The notes beneath the pieces are model-generated. The model was not told the origin of the DNA. It ran no database searches and saw only the letters and a list, made by a program, of their open reading frames with translations. The position numbers and the translations under genes are program-made. Shown in pieces: positions 20,280 through 24,660 of a DNA stretch of 64,000 nt; within the stretch, counting starts at the first letter, position 1, and the number at the start of each line of letters is the position of its first letter. This stretch comes from Bacteroidia bacterium (lineage in GTDB: Bacteria; Bacteroidota; Bacteroidia; Flavobacteriales; Flavobacteriaceae), in the NCBI GenBank assembly GCA_030425285.1, contig JAUIAY010000006.1, positions 62,001 to 126,000 on the forward strand. The letters run 5' to 3'.

Positions 20280-23200
20280 ATGATTCATTTCTTTGGAAAC
20301 CAAAACAGCAAGGTCTTTGCTGTTCAAGCAACAAAAGAATTATCAACCGACACCATTACTAAATTAGTATGGGTTTTTGGCAACCAGCCTAAAATAGAAC
20401 AAGCATCTTTGGATGCTTTTTTTGTTGGCCCACGTGCTGCCATGATAACGCCTTGGAGTACAAATGCTGTTGAAATCACCCAGAATATGGGTATTGAAGG
20501 CATTATTCGTATTGAAGAATTTCAAACTGTTTCTGAAGGTTTCAAAGATTACGACCCTATGATTTCTCAAAAATACAAGGGGTTGAATCAAGATAGTTTT
20601 ACCATCAATATAGAACCTGAAGCTATAAAAAATATTGAGGATATTGCTACTTACAATAAACAAGAAGGTTTAGCCCTAAATGATGAAGAGGTTGAATACC
20701 TAAACAACCTTTCCAAAAAATTAGGCAGACCACTTACAGACTCTGAAGTATATGGTTTTGCTCAAATCAATTCAGAGCACTGTCGCCACAAAATATTTAA
20801 CGGTACGTTTGTTATTGATGGCGAGGAAAAACCGATGTCGCTCTTCAAAATGATTAGAGAAACATCAAACAAAAATCCTAACGATATTGTTTCGGCCTAT
20901 AAAGATAATGTGGCTTTTATAAAAGGTCCAAAAGTGGAACAATTTGCACCTAAACGTGCCGATGTTCCAGATTTTTACGCAACTAAAGATTTTGATTCGG
21001 TAATTTCTATAAAAGCCGAAACACATAACTTCCCTACTACGGTTGAGCCTTTTAACGGTGCTGCAACAGGTTCTGGTGGTGAAATTCGCGACCGTTTAGC
21101 TGGCGGAAAAGGGTCTATTCCTTTAGCCGGAACTGCGGTTTACATGACATCTTACTCGCGTTTAGAAGAAAACCGTCCTTGGGAACAAGCGGTTAAAGAG
21201 CGTGATTGGTTATACCAAACTCCAATGGACATTTTAATAAAAGCCAGTAATGGTGCTTCAGATTTTGGTAACAAATTCGGACAACCACTTATTACAGGTT
21301 CGGTTCTAACATTCGAACACGACGAGGCTAATGACTCTAACGATGTCACCCTGAGCGCGTCATCTCGAGCGCAGTCGAGAGGCGAAGGGTCTCAACCACG
21401 AAAATTAGGCTTCGACAAAGTCATCATGCTTGCAGGTGGTATTGGTTATGGTAAAGCTGACCAAGCCCTTAAAGACACACCAAAAAAAGACGACAAAGTC
21501 GTTATTCTTGGTGGTGAAAACTACCGTATTGGTATGGGTGGCGCAGCAGTTTCTAGTGCCGACACAGGCGAGTTTGAATCGGGTATTGAGCTTAATGCCG
21601 TACAACGTTCTAACCCAGAAATGCAAAAACGTGCTGCAAATGCGGTTCGTGGTATGGTAGAAAGTGACGAAAACTTTATCGTTTCTATTCACGATCATGG
21701 TGCTGGTGGTCACTTAAACTGTTTAAGTGAATTGGTTGAAGATACTGGTGGACACATTGATTTAGATAAATTACCAGTTGGAGACCCAACACTTTCTGAT
21801 AAAGAAATTATTGGTAACGAGTCGCAAGAGCGTATGGGATTGGTAATTGCTGAAAAGCATTTAGAAACCTTACAAAAAATTGCTGATAGAGAGCGTTCGC
21901 CAATGTACACCGTTGGTACAGTTACAGGCGATCATAGATTTACATTCGAGTCTAAAACCAAAGGCAACAAACCTATGGATTTAGCTATGGAAGATATGTT
22001 TGGCAGCTCGCCAAAAACAATAATGACAGATAACACGGTTACACGAAACTATACCGATGTAGCTTACAATAAAGATAAATTTTACGATTATTTAGATCAA
22101 TTGTTACAATTAGAAGCCGTAGCTTGTAAAGATTGGTTAACAAACAAAGTAGACCGCTGCGTTGGTGGTAAAGTAGCCAAACAACAATGTGTTGGCCCAT
22201 TACAAATACCATTAAACAACGTAGGTGTCATGGCTTTAGACTTTAAAGGAAAAGAAGGTATTGCTACATCTATTGGGCACTCGCCTATTTCTGGATTAAT
22301 AGATCCGGTTGCAGGTAGTAGAAATTCTATCACCGAAGCCTTAACCAACATTATTTGGGCGCCTTTAAAAGACGGTTTAAAAAATGTATCACTTTCTGCA
22401 AACTGGATGTGGCCTTGTAAAAACGAAGGTGAAGATGCGCGTTTATACGAAGCTGTTCAAGCAGTTTCTGAATTTGCTATTGGTTTAGGTGTGAATGTTC
22501 CAACAGGGAAAGATTCCCTATCTATGAAGCAAAAATATGCTAATGAAGAAGTTATTTCTCCTGGAACAGTTATCATTTCTGCTGGTGCAAACTGTACGGA
22601 TATTACCAAAATAGTTGAACCTGTTTTACAAAAAAATGCTGGTGATATTTATTACATCAACTTATCACAAGACAACTTTAAATTAGGTGGTAGCTCATTT
22701 GCTCAAGTAGTAAATAAAATTGGTAACGAAGCGCCAACGGTTAAGAGTGCCGATTATGTAAAAACTGTTTTTAACACCATTCAACAATTAATTTTAGATG
22801 AAAAAATTGTTGCAGGGCATGATGTAGCTTCAGGTGGATTAATAACGACACTTCTTGAATTATGCTTTGCTGATAATAATTTAGGTGCCGAATTAGATTT
22901 ATCTGCTTTAGCTGAAAATGATTCGTTTAAATTATTATTTGCTGAAAATGCAGGGCTTGTTATTCAAGCTGCTGATGCGTCTATTGAAACAGTTTTAACT
23001 GAAGCTAATATTGAGTTTTTCAACATAGGAAAGGTAACGGATGCTGATTTATTGAGCATCATTAACGGCACTGATGTCTTTACCATGACCATCTCACGTT
23101 TGCGTGATATGTGGTATAAAACCTCTTTCCTACTCGACCAAAAACAAACAGCAAACGGTTTAGCAAAAGACCGTTTTGATAATTACAAAAACCAACCACT

Positions 23201-24029
23201 TCAATATAAATTCCCTGCACATTTTACGGGAAAACTACCTGATGTCACTTCGAGTGATTCGCCTAAAGCGAATCGTATCGAGAAGCCAAAAGCCGCCATC
23301 CTCCGCGAAAAAGGCAGCAACTCCGAACGCGAAATGGCAAACGCCATGTATCTAGCTGGTTTTGATGTAAAAGATGTGCACATGACCGATTTAATCTCGG
23401 GGCGTGAAACATTAGAAGACATTCAATTTTTAGGTGCTGTTGGTGGTTTCTCTAACTCCGATGTGTTAGGCTCTGCAAAAGGTTGGGCTGGCGCCATTAA
23501 ATACAACGAAAAAGCCAATGAAGTTATTAAAAACTTCTTTGAAAGAGAAGACACGCTTTCTGTGGGTATTTGCAACGGTTGCCAATTGTGGATGGAGTTA
23601 GATTTAATAAACCCAGAGCACGAGCAGCATGGTAAAATGACTTATAACGACTCCCATAAACACGAAAGTGCCTTTACGTCTGTAAAAGTTCAAGAGAACA
23701 ATTCAGTGATGTTAGCATCATTGGCAGGTAGCACGTTAGGAGTTTGGATTTCGCATGGCGAAGGTAAATTCAGTTTACCATATGCTGAAGACAAGTATCA
23801 CATAGTAGCTAAATATGGTTATGAAGGCTATCCGCACAACCCAAATGGCTCCGATTTTAACACCGCCATGATGTGTGATAAAACAGGCCGTCATTTAGTA
23901 ACCATGCCGCATATAGAGCGTTCTACCTTCCAATGGAACTGGGCTAACTACCCTAAAGGCAGAAAAGACCAAGTCTCCCCTTGGTTGGAAGCCTTTGTGA
24001 ATGCTAGAAAATGGATTGAGAATAGATAA
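20280..24029 (+). CDS. purL: Phosphoribosylformylglycinamidine synthase PurL
   Basis: A 1249-aa single-chain FGAM synthase (large PurL), step four of purine synthesis: FGAR + Gln + ATP to FGAM. The N-terminal domain is followed by the synthetase half with NSEHCRHKIFNG and KAETHNFPTTVEPFNGAATG, and the C-terminal class-I glutaminase domain (from about 1003) with nucleophile C1098 in GICNGCQLW. Two in-frame inserts encode peptides absent from the usual sequence: residues about 355-372 (VTLSASSRAQSRGEG) and 988-1003 (DVTSSDSPKANRIEKP), both made of palindromic repeats. They fall in variable linkers, so the enzyme is probably active. A terminator follows directly. Confidence 0.96.
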   Translation: MIHFFGNQNSKVFAVQATKELSTDTITKLVWVFGNQPKIEQASLDAFFVGPRAAMITPWSTNAVEITQNMGIEGIIRIEEFQTVSEGFKDYDPMISQKYKGLNQDSFTINIEPEAIKNIEDIATYNKQEGLALNDEEVEYLNNLSKKLGRPLTDSEVYGFAQINSEHCRHKIFNGTFVIDGEEKPMSLFKMIRETSNKNPNDIVSAYKDNVAFIKGPKVEQFAPKRADVPDFYATKDFDSVISIKAETHNFPTTVEPFNGAATGSGGEIRDRLAGGKGSIPLAGTAVYMTSYSRLEENRPWEQAVKERDWLYQTPMDILIKASNGASDFGNKFGQPLITGSVLTFEHDEANDSNDVTLSASSRAQSRGEGSQPRKLGFDKVIMLAGGIGYGKADQALKDTPKKDDKVVILGGENYRIGMGGAAVSSADTGEFESGIELNAVQRSNPEMQKRAANAVRGMVESDENFIVSIHDHGAGGHLNCLSELVEDTGGHIDLDKLPVGDPTLSDKEIIGNESQERMGLVIAEKHLETLQKIADRERSPMYTVGTVTGDHRFTFESKTKGNKPMDLAMEDMFGSSPKTIMTDNTVTRNYTDVAYNKDKFYDYLDQLLQLEAVACKDWLTNKVDRCVGGKVAKQQCVGPLQIPLNNVGVMALDFKGKEGIATSIGHSPISGLIDPVAGSRNSITEALTNIIWAPLKDGLKNVSLSANWMWPCKNEGEDARLYEAVQAVSEFAIGLGVNVPTGKDSLSMKQKYANEEVISPGTVIISAGANCTDITKIVEPVLQKNAGDIYYINLSQDNFKLGGSSFAQVVNKIGNEAPTVKSADYVKTVFNTIQQLILDEKIVAGHDVASGGLITTLLELCFADNNLGAELDLSALAENDSFKLLFAENAGLVIQAADASIETVLTEANIEFFNIGKVTDADLLSIINGTDVFTMTISRLRDMWYKTSFLLDQKQTANGLAKDRFDNYKNQPLQYKFPAHFTGKLPDVTSSDSPKANRIEKPKAAILREKGSNSEREMANAMYLAGFDVKDVHMTDLISGRETLEDIQFLGAVGGFSNSDVLGSAKGWAGAIKYNEKANEVIKNFFEREDTLSVGICNGCQLWMELDLINPEHEQHGKMTYNDSHKHESAFTSVKVQENNSVMLASLAGSTLGVWISHGEGKFSLPYAEDKYHIVAKYGYEGYPHNPNGSDFNTAMMCDKTGRHLVTMPHIERSTFQWNWANYPKGRKDQVSPWLEAFVNARKWIENR
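21345..21390. repeat. In-frame nested palindromic repeat in purL
   Basis: The outer arms CACCCTGAGCG and CGAAGGGT enclose TCTCGAGCGCAGTCGAGAGG (21363-21382), itself an inverted repeat. It is translated in frame without a stop. The inner 20-mer aligns without gaps to the D-arm insert of the tRNA-derived copies at 24.2-24.6 kb. Confidence 0.7.
23244..23285. repeat. In-frame palindromic repeat in purL linker
   Basis: The core GATTCGC-CTAAA-GCGAATC is a perfect 7-bp hairpin flanked by GTCACTTCGAGT and GTATCGAGAAG. It is the same family as the inverted pair at 24867-24982. It encodes the linker before the glutaminase domain. Confidence 0.7.
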
Positions 24030-24033
24030 TAAA

Positions 24034-24060
24034 AAAGGAGCTTAAAATAAGCTCCTTTTT
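24034..24060 (+). terminator. Rho-independent terminator after purL
   Basis: A perfect 10-11-bp stem AAAGGAGCTTA / TAAGCTCCTTT with a short loop and T run, 5 nt after purL. It also lies just beyond the 3' end of the convergent tRNA-Pro gene. Confidence 0.88.
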
Positions 24061-24064
24061 TTCG

Positions 24065-24139
24065 TCGGGATGACAGGATTTGAACCTGCGACCACACGGC
24101 CCCCAGCCGTGTACGCTAACCGGACTGCGCCACATCCCG
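24065..24139 (-). tRNA. tRNA-Pro (GGG)
   Basis: A complete 75-nt cloverleaf on the minus strand. The acceptor stem is CGGGATG / CATCCCG with discriminator A; the anticodon arm is CACGG-CTGGGGG-CCGTG, giving anticodon GGG; the T arm is GCAGG-TTCAAAT-CCTGT (one G-U). CCA is not encoded, as is usual in this group. Its 5' flank AATTAATT and 5' two-thirds are repeated, in altered form, three times just upstream (24153-24660). Confidence 0.95.
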
Positions 24140-24152
24140 AATTAATTATCTA

Positions 24153-24238
24153 CTGCGACCATTCCGCCTCTAGCGGAATACGCTAACCGGACGGAGCCTG
24201 TCTCGAGCATCGCCGAGAGACCACATCCCGAATTAATT
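24153..24238 (-). repeat. Partial tRNA-Pro copy 1, remodelled
   Basis: Read on the minus strand: flank AATTAATT, tRNA 5' acceptor CGGGATGTGG, then a 28-nt insert replacing the first D-stem strand, then GTCCGGTTAGCGT identical to the tRNA, then a 19-nt anticodon arm of the same length but different sequence (TTCCG-CTAGAGG-CGGAA), then GGTCGCAG. The T loop and 3' acceptor are missing, so it cannot fold as a tRNA. It lies 5 nt from the flank of the true tRNA. Confidence 0.85.
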
Positions 24239-24469
24239 CTCTTCGAGAAATCTTTTAATTCCTCGTTTCTTTATTTTGCTTTCAAGTCTCCTTGCTTCTG
24301 TTCGATTGGAAACTTCTATAACTTTAACCAACTGCCACGGAATGCCCTTTGTAGTATACTTGTTTCCTCCTTTATTATGGACTAAAAGCCTATTTTCAAC
24401 ATCTTTCGATTCACCACAATAATATCTACCTAACAACTCACTCCAAAGTATGTATACATAATGTCTCAT
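24233..24469 (-). CDS. GIY-YIG nuclease, small single-domain
   Basis: A 78-aa protein consisting only of a GIY-YIG nuclease core. VYI (5-7) and YCG (17-19) stand for the two signature tripeptides; R27 in ENRL is the catalytic arginine, H31 and E63 (in RRLESKIKK) fit the conserved His and metal-binding Glu. It has no DNA-binding domain. The ATG lies directly after the tRNA-derived sequence GGTCGCAGGTT of copy 2, and the stop codon is inside the AATTAATT flank of copy 1, so the gene fills the space between two tRNA fragments. Small GIY-YIG genes of this type are common in Flavobacteria; their role is unknown. A homing or repeat-spreading role is inference. Confidence 0.85.
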   Translation of the reverse strand: MRHYVYILWSELLGRYYCGESKDVENRLLVHNKGGNKYTTKGIPWQLVKVIEVSNRTEARRLESKIKKRGIKRFLEEN

Positions 24470-24558
24470 AACCTGCGACCATTCCGCTTCTAGCGGAATA
24501 CGCTAACCGGACGGAGCCTGTCTCGAGCATTGCCGAGAGGCCACATCCCGAATTAATT
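24470..24558 (-). repeat. Partial tRNA-Pro copy 2, remodelled
   Basis: The same layout as copy 1, with three base changes (one in the anticodon-arm loop, two in the D-arm insert). It extends 3 nt further into the T arm (GGTCGCAGGTT) before the sequence becomes the GIY-YIG start codon. Its upstream flank AAACAATTAATT is shared with copy 3. Confidence 0.85.
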
Positions 24559-24574
24559 GTTTATTGTACTTCTT

Positions 24575-24660
24575 CTGCGACCATTCCGCCTCTAGCGGAA
24601 TACGCTAACCGGACGGAGCCTGTCTCGAGCATCGCCGAGAGACCACATCCCGAATTAATT
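24575..24660 (-). repeat. Partial tRNA-Pro copy 3, remodelled
   Basis: 86 bp, identical in sequence to copy 1, separated from copy 2 by a 16-nt spacer. It is the outermost copy. With copies 1 and 2 it has the same breakpoint after GGTCGCAG. Confidence 0.85.

Follow-up and report, generated by a model that had tools for sequence, protein, structure and literature searches.

The nearest described system to the one considered here is that of phage SegB, a free-standing GIY-YIG homing endonuclease that adjoins tRNA genes in T-even phages; in the passages that describe it, SegB cleaves inside tRNA genes at the motif RAWTSGAAC, which we read as the T loop, and drives tandem amplification of tRNA segments with no favored tRNA isotype (PMC13096335). 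A second point of comparison is the REP/REPIN system, whose RAYT is characterized, again in the passages concerned, as an HUH/Y1 enzyme (PMC6006769). Among the open-license PMC papers listed, we recognized none that describes chromosomal GIY-YIG genes of bacteria accompanied by partial tRNA copies, and found none that treats UPF0213, GIY-YIG, and tRNA together. We know of no tRNA-gene association described for UPF0213. Synthetic home-and-rescue drives, which are engineered and belong to eukaryotes, cut an essential gene and carry a functional part.

The window, a 64,000-nucleotide stretch of a Flavobacteriaceae genome, contains an intact tRNA-Pro(GGG) gene (24064..24139, minus strand; called by ARAGORN and matched by RF00005), which we take to be the rescued gene, preceded on the same strand by three partial 5' tRNA copies. 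Copy 1 (24153..24238) is a 5' tRNA part with a remodeled D region and a hairpin arm (24161..24178) that replaces the anticodon arm; the 78-aa GIY-YIG nuclease ORF (24233..24469) abuts it with its final codons; copy 2 (24473..24558; hairpin arm, 24481..24498) lies immediately upstream of the ORF; and copy 3 (24575..24660; hairpin arm, 24583..24600) is outermost, all on the minus strand. No other ORF of at least 50 aa lies between tRNA-Pro(GGG) and copy 3. The 3' side of the tRNA is free of insert, and an inverted repeat in the interval between purL and the tRNA 3' end (24031..24061, no strand assigned) is probably a shared terminator. Copies 1 and 3 do not differ in any of their 86 nt, and copy 2 shares 96.5% identity with copy 1. 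Every remnant has the 5' acceptor strand and an enlarged D region, with the tRNA match ending soon past GGTCGCAG; at the anticodon position stands a new hairpin, TTCCGC..GCGGAA, from which copy 2 differs by one loop letter.

This layout bears out much of the original prediction, which was made from the sequence of the window and posited an intact tRNA-Pro(GGG) with three upstream fragments that share one breakpoint and a small GIY-YIG gene between two of them; the gene lies between copies 1 and 2. The anticodon-type arm that it described in the fragments is present; its nature as a recurring hairpin, and the mirrored 3' form found at other loci, had escaped notice. The sequence AATTAATT, which had been assigned to copy 1 as a tRNA flank, reads instead as the tail of the nuclease ORF, because the final codons (GAG AAT TAA TT) reach copy 1. 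The AATTAATT before tRNA-Pro(GGG) looks like the tail of an ORF-less unit, not the original tRNA leader, and the array as a whole looks like three units, of which one retains its ORF and two (copies 1 and 3) are units minus the ORF. The original prediction further proposed repeated entry into the tRNA gene. At this locus, the copies are too similar to demonstrate three separate entries, and their near-identity fits tandem amplification.

Near-identity is also what would be expected of ordinary tandem tRNA duplication and decay beside an unrelated ORF, an explanation that we regard as very improbable. When copy 1 was searched against its own genome, all five matches fell within this locus, so the resemblance is not due to chance. 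Thirty of the 35 tRNA genes found in this genome were checked for partial copies within 500 bp (score, ≥16), and only three had one: Pro(GGG), Cys, and Gln. The score at tRNA-Trp (15) was just under the threshold, and neither of the two tRNA-Pro(TGG) genes has a partial copy. Such restriction to a few genes argues against duplication and decay, as do results from other genomes given below. The partial 3' copy downstream of tRNA-Cys (L246) has its T arm replaced by a hairpin, and that at tRNA-Gln (L241) also lies downstream.

The window ORF product belongs to the GIY-YIG superfamily (PF01541; E, 6.4e-14). Four residues, Y6, Y17, R27, and E63, are invariant among 50 aligned relatives, and we take them to be the GIY-YIG catalytic Tyr, Tyr, Arg, and Glu. 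The predicted structure is a bare GIY-YIG domain (pLDDT, 94.8), and 78 aa leave no room for a separate DNA-binding domain. The nearest solved structures by both sequence and fold are UPF0213 (PDB 1zg2 and 1ywl) and SLX1, of which UPF0213 1zg2 alone passes E 0.001 in the fold search; the fold is closer to these than to intron homing enzymes. Three proteins scored 13.9 to 24.2 bits against the TIGR01453 group I intron endonuclease profile (cutoff, 56.05), the PADLOC HEase match had an E value of 0.013, and no PHROGs family matched the window protein at E 0.1. dN/dS was <1 in every close pair that yielded a value, mostly 0.14 to 0.41, with extremes of 0, 0.05, about 0.1, and 0.66 and one pair undefined.

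A scan of a genome collection with six aligned homologues as the query matched 186 stretches, of which 161 code for a relative, and the top 80 were retained. The six query proteins had been picked up through their tRNA context, and the 80 were kept without regard to it. Flanks of 900 bp or more are available on each side for 55 of these best 80; in every one of the 55, ARAGORN calls a same-strand tRNA no more than 900 bp away (no more than 300 bp in 48), and these loci have no tRNA on the opposite strand. For rough comparison, the 35 tRNA genes in the 3.12 Mb of the window's own genome place at most about 2% of it within 900 bp of a tRNA. Among the 25 homologues with shorter flanks, a tRNA is present in 16 and absent in 9, for an overall count of 71 of 80. 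The nearby tRNA is tRNA-Pro in 53 of the 55 full-flank loci, and by chosen tRNA the 71 loci divide into Pro (66), Asn (2), Ser (2), and Ile (1), a Pro share that partly reflects lineage choice because the scan query was of the tRNA-Pro type. Both Ser loci (L096 and L119) have Pro-like remnants, and their sequence ends before any tRNA-Pro could appear. Downstream tRNAs start within 20 bp of the matched ORF in 44 of 56 cases, a count that is slightly high because ARAGORN calls some hairpin remnants tRNAs (L097 and L117, where the intact tRNA is 322 to 332 bp off). Enrichment of small GIY-YIG genes beside tRNA genes, as the original prediction expected, is strong elsewhere, and the 55 of 55 count is a second argument against tandem duplication beside an unrelated ORF.

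To survey for bias, 45 relatives were searched for the family; among the matches listed, we examined 92 small-ORF matches. A tRNA call lay within 300 bp in 21 of the 92, on the same strand in 20, one of which (the second ORF of L181) was counted via a remnant that ARAGORN calls a tRNA; the exception was L003, with tRNA-Cys on the opposite strand. Two classes emerged. Class A genes (mostly 78 to 96 aa) lie on the same strand as tRNA-Pro, Arg, Val, Asp, Asn, His, Met, or Leu and once at tRNA-Ser, there without a remnant; class B genes (mostly 92 to 117 aa) are seldom near a tRNA. One class B gene lies near tRNA-Cys in the window's own genome, in the opposite orientation. At two tRNA-Arg loci (L187 and L158), the ORF runs into the tRNA gene, and its last residues, RPRGATE, are encoded by the tRNA 5' end. 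The system extends beyond Bacteroidota: relatives in Desulfoferrobacter and a deltaproteobacterial MAG (L108 and L134) occur at tRNA-Asn and have a similar hairpin of the CCCG type.

On a tree of 188 nuclease proteins, tRNA type was clustered, with 19 changes compared to a shuffled mean of 35.3 (0 of 200 shuffles as low); the Pro label required 7 changes compared to 30.2 when shuffled, and the Ser, His, and Asp labels showed no clustering. This test used tRNA-labeled rows only; an earlier count, in which "none" and "edge" also served as labels, came to 38 changes. Few forks of the tree have good support, and near-copies add to the clustering. The position of the replaced arm together with polarity was clustered as well (6 changes versus 32; 73 labeled of 80 rows, some of the labels assigned by eye).

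Two mirrored arrangements recur, and the same plan is found at most other tRNA types. The 5' form runs from the remnant through the ORF to the intact tRNA; in the 3' form, the intact tRNA comes first, and a terminator-like repeat, the ORF, and a 3'-half remnant follow, often with the terminator-like repeat once more. Remnants were scored at 90 loci, 2 of which had too short a flank. The far-side flank matched the neighboring tRNA with a score of ≥16 in 72 of the remaining 88 loci (56 of 62 for the 5' form and 16 of 26 for the 3' form), compared to 1 of 88 for the reverse complement and 0 of 88 for the best of 20 shuffles; this count includes L066, which is L015 entered twice, L128 and L130, which share an ORF stretch, and some mis-set ORF ends (L106). 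Among the 16 loci scoring <16 (6 of 62 and 10 of 26, respectively), some remnants are decayed or were mis-delimited by the script. Class B flanks, compared with at most 30 tRNA-Pro sequences, matched in 1 of 66 cases. The partial tRNA expected next to such genes is thus common, which again speaks against duplication and decay beside an unrelated ORF.

The arm adjoining the breakpoint is the one replaced, and often the D arm is replaced too: the anticodon arm is replaced where the break falls after GGTCGCAG or in the D loop, and the T arm where it falls in the 3' acceptor strand. In the remnants that we inspected, a GC-rich hairpin whose stem bears compensatory changes usually takes the place of the breakpoint-side arm. 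Among 5'-form arms caught by our patterns, a perfect stem of at least 6 bp was present in 15 of 16 at the anticodon position (L062 has a T-G pair) and in 29 of 30 at the T position (L096 has a mismatch), and about 16 five-prime-type loci were missed by the patterns; left out of these counts were, from the 20 "AC5" rows, three natural arms (L071, L085, and L129) and the 3'-form L074, and from the 36 "T5" rows, five natural arms and L086, which has no tRNA in view. Arms of the 3' form were read by eye, since automatic extraction shortened most of them and was not used; they appear similar, except that L071 has a mismatch, the core differs in L074, and the stem of L134 is shorter. An attachment-site scar of an integrase-type element is an explanation to which we give almost no credence. 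Integrases frequently use tRNA genes, which speaks for it; the sole ORF of at least 50 aa in the window unit is the 78-aa nuclease, with no integrase, and a scar would account for neither the mirrored 5' and 3' forms nor the replaced arms.

The replaced arms keep their stems, with covarying changes, which counts against ordinary decay after duplication. In the 19 arms that fit 17 columns, the only ones used for this analysis, 99.1% of stem cells are paired, both sides have changed in 4 of 6 pairs, and the covariation score is 0.322 versus 0.112; none of 500 shuffles reached any of these values. One of five covariation measures, further pair types, was not above the shuffles (138 of 500 reached it).

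What the hairpin does is a separate matter. Shielding of intact tRNA folding in an unprocessed transcript has next to no support in 28 loci: the mean acceptor-pair probability was 0.019 with real remnants, 0.00003 with natural arms, 0.59 with no remnant, and 0.97 for the tRNA alone, and a paired folding test favored real remnants (P, 2e-5), with the gain exceeding 0.05 in L139 only; these values come from whole-transcript equilibrium folding, a poor model. Nor does the arm replacement serve merely against excision by recombination, because direct repeats of ~50 bp persist between remnant and tRNA at several tRNA-Pro(TGG) loci, as judged by eye.

The recurrence of hairpins brings up another way in which such units might move. 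A structure-specific nuclease like SLX1 or UPF0213 could act on the hairpins of a transposition-like unit: the hairpin at the end of the unit would change places with a tRNA arm extruded while the DNA is single stranded, and class B genes would do likewise with REP-like hairpins. That UPF0213 and SLX1 are the nearest solved relatives in sequence and fold fits this proposal, as does the CGC..GCG stem core often common to hairpins across tRNAs and phyla, and hairpins with 8-bp stems occur in 35 of 132 near flanks of class B genes versus 7 of 132 far flanks; stems of at least 9 bp, however, are not enriched there (0 versus 4 of 132). The tRNA-type hairpin, TCMCGC(3-7)GCGKGA, is not dispersed (0 to 6 per genome in 13 genomes; reversed control, 0 to 2), and recombination-driven homing accounts as well for the tRNA half that is retained and for transfer at the same locus. 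We consider hairpin-directed movement unlikely, without dismissing it. The same counts leave a REP origin of the tRNA-type hairpin unsupported.

Several observations concern class B genes and purL in their own right. In the window's genus, the pattern ATTCCTGC(3-6)GCAGGAAT occurs 10 to 20 times per genome (compared to 0 for the reversed control); a GIY-YIG gene stands between the members of some pairs, and others, without one, lie 46 to 48 nt apart in a REPIN-like manner. Class B loci among L142 to L221 (e.g., G004:C1:1097699-1098060 and G006:C10:6753-7095) often have flank hairpins with 8-bp stems. Two repeat-like palindromic stretches of the window (21330-21404 and 23244-23288) lie in frame within purL; where the second one falls, a further insert-like peptide is present in G001 and a short linker in G002 to G004.

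In 15 of 33 five-prime loci, the Bacteroidota promoter-like motif TAnnTTTG lies no more than 60 nt ahead of the remnant, and in 2 of 33 it precedes the closest downstream tRNA call; the control, placed 400 nt further up, gave 0, with loci too short counted as negative. Because the motif precedes the remnant and rarely the tRNA, the ORF and tRNA are probably cotranscribed. Such cotranscription, with the tight adjacency of ORF and tRNA, the stem covariation, and dN/dS values of <1, would suit a host function, in which a domesticated nuclease is coexpressed with tRNA-Pro and the tRNA-like remnant serves as a cis-acting RNA leader. Against it, the distribution is patchy: by our reading, the tRNA-Pro type occurs in 6 of 119 genomes, the window's own among them, and of 5 genomes in the genus, 1 carries the ORF at this locus. 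Tandem arrays, units that lack the ORF, and the mirrored form, whose hairpin lies downstream of the ORF, also tell against it; we judge a host function quite improbable.

The window locus differs among close relatives. The purL and AMP-ligase neighbors are kept in G000, G001, and G002; on the 5' side, G002 has no insert, G001 has one ORF-less unit, and G000 has three units, one of them with an ORF. The 3' side has no insert in G000, one in G001, and two in G002, and these inserts end in T-arm-replaced remnants; we saw no nuclease ORF in them. The original prediction held that copies in relatives lacking the nuclease would count against it, and taken literally, G001, with one copy and no nuclease there, is such a case; we read it as a unit after ORF loss because the AATTAATT tail is retained before the tRNA.

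At some loci, the ORF is younger than its surroundings. At the Arenibacter GGG locus, three pairs gave an ORF dS of 0.14, 0.16, and 0.04 versus 1.42, 1.53, and 1.20 for the neighboring gene. In Christiangramia (L092/L093), ORF dS was 0.05, compared to 1.13 to 1.42 upstream and 0.06 to 0.23 downstream, and the similar tract starts about 8 bp before the remnant; compared with L095, the ORF dS was 0.45 and the flanks were saturated. These values fit same-locus exchange, once with a one-sided tract. Elsewhere the ORF is not clearly young: 0.66 versus 0.55 to 1.04 for L117/L125, 0.92 versus 1.22 and saturated for L109/L097, 2.59 versus 2.75 for L131/L135, and 1.24 for L080/L104, which lacks a valid flank gene. 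Single dS values are rough because the ORF is short, 9 of 19 pairs had no flank gene for comparison, and flank matches with protein identity near 0.6 (all of those for L080/L104 and one for L117/L125) look like wrong frames. Presence and absence at one locus, together with transfer younger than the flanks, as expected of a homing gene, are thus found at some loci. Tandem growth is common as well: 23 of 80 loci have two or more ORF matches, some of them partial, and one locus (L013/L065) has three near-identical 304-bp units.

We think it probable, with real room for doubt, that the nuclease gene is a free-standing one of the homing type, which inserts into a tRNA gene and brings along the tRNA half by which that gene is restored. 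A 5' unit would consist of the hairpin, a few tRNA bases, the GIY-YIG ORF, and the tRNA 5' half through the natural arm; the mirror form would carry the tRNA 3' half and a terminator instead. The nuclease may recognize a tRNA arm and cut beside it, and repair off a unit-bearing copy would then insert the unit, so that the inserted half and the host's other half make an intact tRNA. The host's old half would be left beyond the ORF, where remnants do lie with the breakpoint-side arm swapped for the hairpin, and the hairpin could serve to remove the natural target from the remnant. Since the intact tRNA retains the presumed target arm, self-cutting must be limited somehow. The lack of space for a separate DNA-binding domain, the kinship of the fold with UPF0213 and SLX1, and the loci at which the ORF is not clearly young also weigh against this explanation. 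In the 5' form, the old promoter, which lies upstream of the remnant, would probably serve both ORF and tRNA, as the motif suggests. Tandem arrays might arise by re-entry or duplication, and ORF-less units may be deletion products. Of the original proposal that a nuclease-linked unit splits a tRNA gene and brings a replacement part, the layout and its enrichment elsewhere stand; entry by nuclease action is a step that we infer from them.

More tentatively, and as a possibility that we would not yet call probable, these hairpin-ended GIY-YIG units could form a new class of mobile elements that swap a tRNA arm for a hairpin and supply a rescuing half-tRNA. They would then amount to a naturally occurring home-and-rescue drive, whose lineages, each specific to a tRNA, are found in Bacteroidota and outside it, and the longer sister group may drive REPIN-like repeats in genomes that have no RAYT. 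If so, a selfish gene would persist in an essential gene by simultaneous cutting and repair with a protein of about 80 residues, bacteria would possess a natural home-and-rescue drive, and there would be an explanation for the odd partial tRNA copies that Bacteroidota carry next to small GIY-YIG genes.

Set against known systems, the synthetic home-and-rescue drives resemble this arrangement in that an essential gene is targeted and a functional part is carried; here the arrangement is natural and bacterial, and cutting is putative. UPF0213 shares the bare GIY-YIG domain and is both the closest solved sequence and the best fold match. The REP/REPIN-RAYT system, in the passages that describe it, likewise ties small hairpin repeats to a nuclease gene (PMC6006769), but the tRNA-type hairpin here is not dispersed; the HUH Y1 transposase profile (PF01797) had no match in five genomes of the genus (G000 to G004), so that no RAYT was found there that could act as the driver. 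SegB and the nuclease described here are both free-standing GIY-YIG proteins encoded beside tRNA genes, with cutting seen for SegB and presumed here. SegB is encoded by phage genes, whereas the present units lie in bacterial chromosomes and combine a bare 78-aa domain, lineages clustered by tRNA, and a hairpin arm; the passages on SegB mention no split tRNA with a hairpin remnant and a rescue half (PMC13096335).
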